Translations under genes and position numbers: made by a program
Notes under the pieces: generated by a model
Database searches by the model: none
What the model was told of the DNA's origin: nothing
Seen by the model: the letters and a program-made list of their open reading frames with translations, nothing else
In this document: in pieces, positions 23,300 to 25,531 of the stretch
Position numbering within the stretch: position 1 is the first letter of the stretch
Layout: the number at the start of each line of letters is the position of its first letter
Origin: Chloroflexi bacterium OHK40
GTDB lineage: Bacteria > Chloroflexota > Chloroflexia > Chloroflexales > Chloroflexaceae
DNA length: 33,023 nucleotides
Direction of reading: 5' to 3'
Assembly (NCBI GenBank): GCA_004367505.1
Contig: SFCB01000288.1
Location: 1 to 33,023 of the forward strand

Positions 23300-24655
23300 T
23301 TAGAGGCTCGGCAGCCCGGCCAGGGCCATCGCGACCTCCTCGTCGGAGTACTCGAAGTCCTTCAGCTTGCCGGCCTGGAAGTCCATATAGGCCTGCATAT
23401 CAAAGTGCCCGTGGCCGCAGAGGTTGAAGAGGATCGTGCGGCTGGTGCCCTCCTCCTTACAGCGCAGGGCCTCGCGAATCGCGCCAGCGACGGCGTGGTT
23501 GGCCTCCGGGGCGGGGAGGATGCCCTCGGCGCGGGCAAACTGGATGCCGGCGGCGAAGGTCTCGAGCTGCTGGAGGGCCACGGCCTCGATCTGCCCGAGG
23601 TTGAGCAGATGGCTCACCAGCGGCGCCATGCCGTGGTAGCGCAGGCCGCCCGCGTGGATGCCGGAGGGCACGAAGGTGCTGCCGAGGGTGTGCATCTTGA
23701 CGAGCGGTGTGAGGTGGCCGGTATCGCCGAAATCGTAGACGTAGCGGCCTTTGGTGAGCGAGGGGCAGGCTGCGGGCTCCACGGCTACAACGCGCACCTC
23801 GCGCTCACCGCGTAGCCTGGCGCCGATGAACGGGAAGGCGATCCCGGCGAAGTTGGAGCCGCCGCCGGTGCAGCCCACGATCACGTCGGGATAGTCACCG
23901 GCCAGTTCCAACTGGGCCAGGGCCTCCTGGCCCACCACGGTCTGGTGGAGCAGCACGTGGTTGAGGACGCTGCCAAGGGCGTACTTCGTATCGTCGCGCT
24001 GCACGGCCCGCTCCACGGCCTCGCTAATGGCGATGCCGAGGCTGCCGGTGCTATCGGGGTGCTCGGCGAGGATCGCGCGGCCAGCGGCGGTCTCCTCGCT
24101 GGGGCTGGCCACTACGCGGGCGCCGTAGGCCTCCATCAGCGCGCGGCGGTAGGGCTTCTGGTTATAGCTCACCTTGACCATATAGACCTCGACTTCGAGG
24201 CCGAAGAGGGCCCCGGCAAAGGCCAGCGATGAGCCCCACTGGCCGGCGCCGGTCTCGGTCACGATGCGCTTCACACCCTCCTGCTTGTTGTAGTAGGCCT
24301 GGGCCACGGCGGTGTTTGGCTTATGGCTACCGGCAGGGCTGACACCCTCGTACTTGTAGTAGATCTTCGCCGGGGTATCGAGGGCCCGCTCCAGGCGCCG
24401 GGCGCGGTAGAGCGGGGTGGGCCGCCACTGCCGGTAGATCGCCTGTACCTCCTCGGGGATCTCCACCGCTCGCTCCGTGCTTACTTCCTGGAGAATAAGG
24501 GCCATGGGGAAGAGCGGCGCGAGATCGGCCGGGCCGACCGGCTGGTGGGTGCCCGGGTGCAGCACGGGCGGGGGCGGCGACGGCAGGTCGGCGGCGATGT
24601 TGTACCAGGCCGTGGGCATGCGATCTTCGGTGAGCACATACTTGACGGTCTCCAT
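23300..24655 (-). CDS. trpB: Tryptophan synthase beta chain, TrpB2 type
   Basis: The 451-residue length is close to TrpB2 and longer than TrpB1 (about 400). PLP-binding Lys is K112 in AGSHKPN, the catalytic Glu is E134 in TETGAGQWG, and the phosphate cup is GGGSN (264-268). The N-terminal extension (about 1-75, with MPTAWYNI and HPGTHQPV) is typical of TrpB2. TrpB2 joins serine and indole and often works without the usual TrpA contact. ATG 24655 has AGGAGG six bases upstream; an ATG at 24661 directly abuts the ribosome site and is less likely. A T-box specific for tRNA-Trp lies upstream, which supports a real role in tryptophan supply. No trpA is in the window. Confidence 0.95.
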
Positions 24656-24674
24656 CCCCATCCTCCTTGATTGG

Positions 24675-24734: not shown

Positions 24735-24769
24735 AAAAAACCCCTCGACCCACTCTGGGGATCGAGAGG
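24735..24769 (-). terminator. Intrinsic terminator of the T-box leader
   Basis: On the minus strand an 11-bp stem (5' arm starting CCTCTCGATCC, 3' arm GGGTCGAGGGG, two G-U pairs) with a 7-nt loop is followed by six T. Its 5' arm includes CTCTCG, which the antiterminator also needs, so the two structures exclude each other. Confidence 0.85.
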
Positions 24770-25076
24770 CGAATGATCGCGGTGCCACTCTCGTTCGCGG
24801 GTGCCACGTTGGTGCGGCTGGCCCACGCACTCTGGGGTGCTGTCGGCGCGGCTCGGGCCGTGCTCGCTCTACACCCTTCGCCTTGATAACGGTGGCGTCT
24901 CCGGCGGGGACTACTCAGCCGATGCTTCGTGCACCGCAGGTGGCTACCGTGCACGTTGGCGTCGCATCGCTTTTCGGTCCGCAACTCCCAGGCCCATTCC
25001 ACCACGCCGTACGCACCGGCCTCGCACCATCTGCCGGTTCGCTGGGCCGCCGTACGTGGTGTACTCTTCCTGATCC
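24735..25076 (-). promoter_or_regulatory. Tryptophan-specific T-box riboswitch controlling trpB
   Basis: T-boxes sense uncharged tRNA. Read on the minus strand, Stem I starts near GGATCAGGAAGAGTA, with the AGTA motif. ACCACG pairs with CGTGGT, CAGG with CCTG, and the specifier loop GGAATGGGCC carries TGG (24994-24996), the tryptophan codon. The 3' part has the T-box core GAGTGGCACCGCGA (24777-24790). GCGA/TCGC and CGAGAG/CTCTCG form the antiterminator, and the alternative terminator follows. The bulge TGGC would pair with the GCCA end of a tRNA with discriminator G73, as bacterial tRNA-Trp has. Uncharged tRNA-Trp should thus turn on trpB. The spans of Stems II and III were not resolved. Confidence 0.85.
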
Positions 25077-25102
25077 TTGTTGCTGGCTGTGTAATTGGCG
25101 GG

Positions 25103-25132
25103 AGTATAGCACGGCTTCAGCGGAGGTGTCAA
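25103..25132 (-). promoter_or_regulatory. Sigma70 promoter of the T-box/trpB transcript
   Basis: On the minus strand TTGACA (25127-25132) and TATACT (25103-25108) are separated by 18 nt, and TGC before TATACT makes an extended -10. Transcription should start near 25096, about 20 nt before Stem I of the T-box. Confidence 0.8.
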
Positions 25133-25224: not shown

Positions 25225-25253
25225 TTGACGCCCCCCGTTGTGGGGGCTATAAT
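25225..25253 (+). promoter_or_regulatory. Sigma70 promoter of the cyclic-di-AMP receptor/glycosyltransferase operon
   Basis: TTGACG (25225-25230) and TATAAT (25248-25253) are 17 nt apart, the ideal spacing. Transcription should start near 25260, about 30 nt before the ATG. It diverges from the trpB promoter, with about 90 nt between the two -35 boxes. Confidence 0.8.
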
Positions 25254-25288: not shown

Positions 25289-25531
25289 ATGAAACTGATT
25301 ATTTTCGTCACCGACGATGCCCACGCCGACGCCAGTGTCGATGCGCTCGTCGAGCAGGGTTTTCGTGTTACGCGCCTGGCGACGACGGGCGGCTTTCTGC
25401 GCCGTGGCAACACGACCTTGCTCGTGGGCGTTGAGGATAACCAGGTTGAGCGGGCCCAGGAGCTCGTGAAGCGCGCCGCCCCTGGTACGCTCGCGATCAC
25501 CATGGATCTGGAGCGCTACGAGCGGCTGTGA
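25289..25531 (+). CDS. Short cyclic-di-AMP receptor-like protein (PstA/DarA family)
   Basis: The 80-residue protein has the PII-like fold pattern of the DarA/PstA family. MKLIIFVTDD, the middle block FRVTRLATTGGFLRRGNTTLLVGVED and a short final strand near GTLAITMDLERY match the family. Known members have about 109 residues; here the roughly 25-30-residue loop between the second helix and the last strand is missing. Such proteins are trimeric and bind cyclic-di-AMP or a similar nucleotide in the cell. ATG 25289 has GGAG seven bases upstream. Its stop overlaps the start of the glycosyltransferase by 4 nt (GTGA), so translation of the two is coupled. Whether ligand binding survives the loop loss cannot be told from sequence. 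Confidence 0.85.
   Translation: MKLIIFVTDDAHADASVDALVEQGFRVTRLATTGGFLRRGNTTLLVGVEDNQVERAQELVKRAAPGTLAITMDLERYERL

Follow-up and report, generated by a model that had tools for sequence, protein, structure and literature searches.

A trpB2 gene in the genome of Chloroflexi bacterium OHK40 is preceded by a structured leader, which raises the question of whether this leader senses tRNA-Trp and, if so, what purpose a TrpB2 enzyme under such control would serve. Leader and gene lie on the minus strand of the window (the whole stretch of DNA analysed, 33,023 nt). A sequence-only reading had described the leader as a tryptophan-specific T-box with a promoter, AGTA motif, TGG specifier, TGGCACC core and competing stems, and these parts are all present:

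25103..25132, minus: sigma-70-type promoter, TTGACA (25132-25127), 18 nt, TATACT (25108-25103); 11 of 12 positions match, 0.1 such sites expected in shuffled sequence
24762..25086, minus: T-box leader, by match to RF00230
24984..25080, minus: Stem I with specifier loop and distal AG-bulge/GGUG loop motifs, by RF00230 alignment and covariation in 75 leaders
25062..25065, minus: AGTA motif of the specifier loop (S-turn), in sequence and RF00230 alignment
24994..24996, minus: UGG specifier (Trp codon), in the columns of the other specifiers of this genome; UGG also precedes trpB2 in 76 other genomes, a set extracted with UGG in the pattern
24887..24905, minus: CCGG...CCGUUA element (CCGUUA at 24892-24887), Stem II/IIA-B region, by alignment to the RF00230 consensus
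24781..24787, minus: T-box bulge UGGCACC, in sequence and RF00230 alignment; UGGC is complementary to the GCCA end of tRNA-Trp
24764..24792, minus: antiterminator, helices GAGAG/CUCUC and GCG/CGC flanking the bulge, by alignment; predicted -12.6 kcal/mol
24735..24770, minus: intrinsic terminator, hairpin 24770-24741 (-19.4 kcal/mol) and U-run 24740-24735; its 5' arm is common to the antiterminator
24662..24667, minus: Shine-Dalgarno sequence AGGAGG, 6 nt before the ATG at 24655
23300..24655, minus: trpB2, 451 aa, TrpB-like PLP enzyme (TIGR01415, PRK12391; best PDB relatives 6hul, 4qys and 6hte)

The search with the Rfam T-box model RF00230, which had been proposed as a check, gave a match over the full model (1-219) at 25086-24762 (-), with 54.5 bits and an E value of 4.4e-11 (1.0e-10 against the whole genome). 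The score is below the curated cut-off of 93 bits, so the default Rfam scan at the gathering cut-off was empty for the leader and the match came from a permissive search. Unlike typical members of RF00230, the leader is G+C-rich and carries long insertions, which explains the low score. All seven T-boxes of the genome fall below the cut-off, and orthologous leaders of relatives exceed it, reaching 105 bits. With the transcriptional class of RF00230 the leader shares a Stem I with AGTA and specifier loop, the CCGUUA element, a UGGN bulge in the antiterminator, and a competing terminator. Antiterminator and terminator are mutually exclusive, as had been proposed, sharing the strand 24771-24764. 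The leader is thus a genuine T-box with all of the listed parts. Other weak Rfam matches in the region (NsiR1, small SRP, ST7-OT3_4) were rejected as chance-level or as the terminator itself.

Two details of the first description need adjustment. The span of 24735-25076 covers a real element, but the predicted transcription start lies at about 25096 (-), slightly upstream of that end. The T run placed directly before the gene is indeed there, but 80 nt separate it from the start codon of trpB2.

Two further features of the region were seen. A second UGGCACC occurs at 24806-24800, upstream of the antiterminator and 12 nt before the true bulge, where the model alignment places Stem III. It is possibly a decoy or a chance occurrence, and that alignment does not make it the functional bulge. 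Another strong promoter-like site (TTGACG-17-TATAAT, 25225-25253, plus strand) diverges from the trpB2 promoter and points toward a short ORF at about 25289 and a glycosyltransferase gene at 25528.

The tRNA that the leader would read can be predicted from the register of the specifier. In the alignment columns that hold ACC in the T-box of thrS, AUC in that of ileS, GAC in that of aspS and GGC in that of glyS, all in the same genome, the trpB2 leader has UGG, as the sequence-only reading had it. That reading had also paired TGGC with a tRNA ending in GCCA, and the single tRNA-Trp found in the genome has the anticodon CCA and a 3' end of G73-CCA, matching UGGC. By register and by the match to G73, the leader is assigned to tRNA-Trp. 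Of 76 leaders before trpB2, 69 have C and seven have U as the variable base of UGGN, both compatible with G73. UGG is invariant in these 76 only because it was part of the pattern used to extract them; the unfiltered evidence comes from the RF00230 matches, where every one adjoining trpB2 whose sequence was then inspected had UGG. Met and Gly tRNAs carry discriminators other than G73, and the T-box of glyS in this genome has A as its variable base. A specifier frame shifted by one, giving AUG (Met) or GGG (Gly), is therefore disfavoured, as C in the bulge pairs with G73 and all trpB2 leaders have C or U there. Shifts of one step do occur in some T-boxes (PMC7778990), but with the columns of known specifiers reading UGG, there is only a minute chance that the leader serves another tRNA. 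Many Trp T-boxes have U opposite G73 according to TBDB (PMC7778990).

The other T-boxes of the genome include two unusual elements. One (L006, C272:4451-4711; 58 bits) is T-box-like with a GGCACC bulge and a poorly matching Stem I, and it precedes and partly overlaps an ORF that encodes a NUDIX hydrolase, not a synthetase. The other (L004, C220:25956-26184) is a second Thr-type T-box before a thrS-like frame that meets a stop after about 105 residues; this is a truncated copy of thrS, the full copy being at L001. The RF00230 search detected no T-box on trpB1, trpE, trpA or trpS of the OHK40 genome.

The earlier naming of the downstream gene as TrpB2 is borne out by profile searches. Its product scores 640 bits against TIGR01415 (cut-off 518.85) and 742 against PRK12391 (cut-off 366), versus only 159 against the TrpB1 model TIGR00263 (cut-off 392), which on sequence grounds places it in the TrpB2 group. 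The motifs GSHKPNTA and ETGAGQWG, with the PLP-lysine and the catalytic glutamate, align with 6hul, 4qys and 6hte and are invariant in the TrpB2 alignment (A1). The genome also encodes a canonical trpB1 on another contig and trpA, with trpE and trpS in the window.

The pairing of T-box and trpB2 recurs in relatives. Within the same family, trpB2 was found in 39 of 41 genomes, and 33 of 37 upstream regions carry a T-box, the four without one being L072, L074, L076 and L077. In a sample of the phylum, 111 of 201 Chloroflexota genomes have trpB2. Beyond the family, 96 regions upstream of the gene were covered and 43 have a UGG leader, 39 of the 43 being independently listed as RF00230 matches. 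Two motif matches (L095, L170) were dropped for want of a specifier context. Over 75 distinct leaders, the 19 pairs of Stem I are paired in 95.8% of cells and 17 of them have changed on both sides; none of 300 shuffles was as good. Since 76 other genomes have a homologous leader before trpB2, with UGG at the equivalent position and covariation in the stems, the OHK40 match is not a chance event. Most leaders have a competing terminator hairpin and U-run, and some have weaker tails (e.g., those of family f12). A motif scan of 80 named TrpB2 loci (Proteobacteria, Acidobacteria and other phyla) found T-boxes in three loci only, all of them from Chloroflexota. The trpB2 leader of one genome (L050, G017) gives a match of only 169 nt, in which Stem I and the antiterminator are retained and little is left of the Stem II/III region.

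The same comparison bears on whether the OHK40 leader is a decayed, non-functional remnant. Its bit score is the lowest of the seven T-boxes in the genome, as decay would predict, but no damage is seen in the specifier, bulge, antiterminator, terminator, promoter or Shine-Dalgarno site, and the whole structure is kept in close relatives, making a remnant highly improbable.

In four distant genomes (G133, G049, G221 and G129), the T-box heads a trpS-trpB2 operon. A gene of 1.0-1.2 kb lies between T-box and trpB2, and its translation looks like a tryptophanyl-tRNA synthetase in all four cases; the three submitted to the NCBIfam trpS model (G133, G129, G049) passed its cut-off. Other genes are also found in this position. 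In G019 (L071), the gene inserted between the Trp T-box and trpB2 is RidA-like (PF01042). RidA clears the enamines that PLP enzymes produce, so this arrangement would place an enamine-removing enzyme under the same switch. In four genomes of family f9 (L160, L163, L166 and L154, from G099, G091, G061 and G121), the intervening sequence is a short ORF of about 36-57 aa; it is similar in all four and has a hydrophobic F-[VI]-P at its C-terminal end (for instance MDAQIEISNMQPADAIPLEDRSLPASETLKEQQADIAEKDFAPVFVP). The three of these ORFs that were tested had no Pfam match; a small protein or peptide controlled together with trpB2 is possible.

TrpB2 could instead be some other PLP enzyme, catalysing beta-replacement or deamination, that came under a Trp T-box by chance. 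The cautious NCBIfam name 'TrpB-like' and the RidA-like gene of G019, RidA being the scavenger of PLP-enzyme enamines, would suit this explanation. The conserved motifs, however, align with those of solved TrpB2 enzymes, and Trp-specific control together with the trpS operons points to Trp supply, so that it is an unlikely one.

A further indication of the function of TrpB2 comes from genomes lacking the rest of the pathway. Among 61 genomes with trpB2 that were tested, trpB1 is absent from 18, and 17 of these 18 also have no trpA or trpE over the cut-off; all 17 keep the T-box and trpB2. One of them (G167) has a single weak trpE match, and trpC is absent from 16 of the 17. These 17 belong to nine families and are draft assemblies, 92-100% complete, on which the absence of genes rests; as positive controls, trpA and trpC were detected in 14 of 14 reference genomes and trpB in 13 of 14. 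Since T-box and trpB2 are kept where trpA, trpB1 and trpE are not, TrpB2 is most likely a Trp-forming enzyme, with salvaged indole as its probable substrate, and the simplest reading of these genomes is indole salvage turned on by uncharged tRNA-Trp.

A different division of labour has to be weighed here, in which the leader is a Trp sensor but TrpB2 works mainly in de novo synthesis, as an additional beta subunit for TrpA, and less in indole salvage. The OHK40 genome retains trpA, trpB1 and trpE, with trpE near trpB2 in the window, and the closest solved structure, 6hul_B, is a Sulfolobus TrpA-TrpB2 complex. Another genome (G040) has trpA, trpC, trpE and the T-box with trpB2 but no TrpB1 match; its TrpB2 may be the beta subunit that partners TrpA, or an assembly gap may hide trpB1. 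Against this stands the retention of T-box and trpB2 in the 17 genomes that have no trpA, trpB1 or trpE over the cut-off, and we regard a mainly de novo role as possible but rather doubtful. In OHK40, where those three genes are still present, TrpB2 may have a role other than salvage.

The reading we prefer is that a transcriptional tRNA-Trp T-box controls trpB2 and that TrpB2 makes Trp, most likely chiefly from indole and serine, to which we give a probability of roughly 0.88. It draws on the observed anatomy, register-based specificity, homologous covarying leaders, gene identity and genomic distribution, from which we infer both the switching and the indole-salvage chemistry. In characterised T-boxes, the specifier recognises the anticodon and the antiterminator is stabilised by the free tRNA end, an effect that charging blocks (PMC7778990). 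By analogy, transcription would start near 25096 and the UGG specifier in Stem I would read the CCA anticodon. The GCCA end of uncharged tRNA-Trp would then pair with UGGC in the bulge, stabilising the antiterminator and allowing trpB2 to be transcribed; with charged tRNA-Trp this pairing would be blocked and the terminator would form. The enzyme would combine serine with salvaged indole, either in addition to the de novo route through TrpA and TrpB1 or in its place. The suggestion that TrpB2 has a true role in Trp supply, already made from this one locus, is most likely correct given the phylum-wide conservation, the trpS-trpB2 operons and the retention in genomes lacking the pathway.

As an RNA element, the trpB2 T-box is ordinary and not the first of its kind, although it is a clean example and informative for the role of TrpB2. 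We know of no T-box on archaeal or Thermotoga TrpB2 genes, and expression of trpB2 here would, unlike theirs, be tied to the charging of tRNA-Trp. The archaeal and Thermotoga enzymes belong to the same group and their genes also lie outside the trp operon (PMC1854888), and T. kodakarensis TrpB2 is cited as acting in indole salvage (in PMC11085991). Bacillota trp operons with T-boxes (PMC12452182) likewise combine a Trp specifier with control of Trp synthesis, but there the T-box precedes the whole trp operon, whereas in Chloroflexota it precedes a lone trpB2. Nearest to the present case is Dehalococcoides, of the same phylum, for which the main text of Wels et al. 2008 (PMC2494555) gives three T-boxes: one upstream of ileS and two linked to Trp synthesis, of which one precedes trpE and the other a 'trpB-like' gene. 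One of the genomes sampled here (G045, 1.5 Mb) has two Trp T-boxes of this kind, before trpE and trpB2. That main text does not take up TrpB2 or where it occurs, nor trpS-trpB2 operons or persistence in genomes lacking the pathway, and our literature search found no study of T-boxes and TrpB2 beyond its 'trpB-like' sentence. The association of a T-box with a trpB-like gene has therefore been known in one genus since 2008; its spread through the phylum, the trpS operons and its survival in genomes lacking the pathway were not found in the literature searched.

The function of TrpB2 in organisms that also possess TrpB1 has long been a question. A tRNA-Trp switch on trpB2 across much of the phylum, even where the other Trp genes tested are missing, suggests an enzyme that is used when charged tRNA-Trp runs short. 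We lean, with some reserve, towards viewing the Trp T-box and trpB2, sometimes with trpS, as an old Chloroflexota module that ties indole salvage to the charging of tRNA-Trp and has outlived the de novo pathway, TrpB2 being the sole Trp-forming enzyme of many Trp-auxotrophic lineages. The culturable genera Chloroflexus, Roseiflexus and Dehalococcoides allow indole salvage to be tested directly against support of de novo synthesis as the role of the enzyme.
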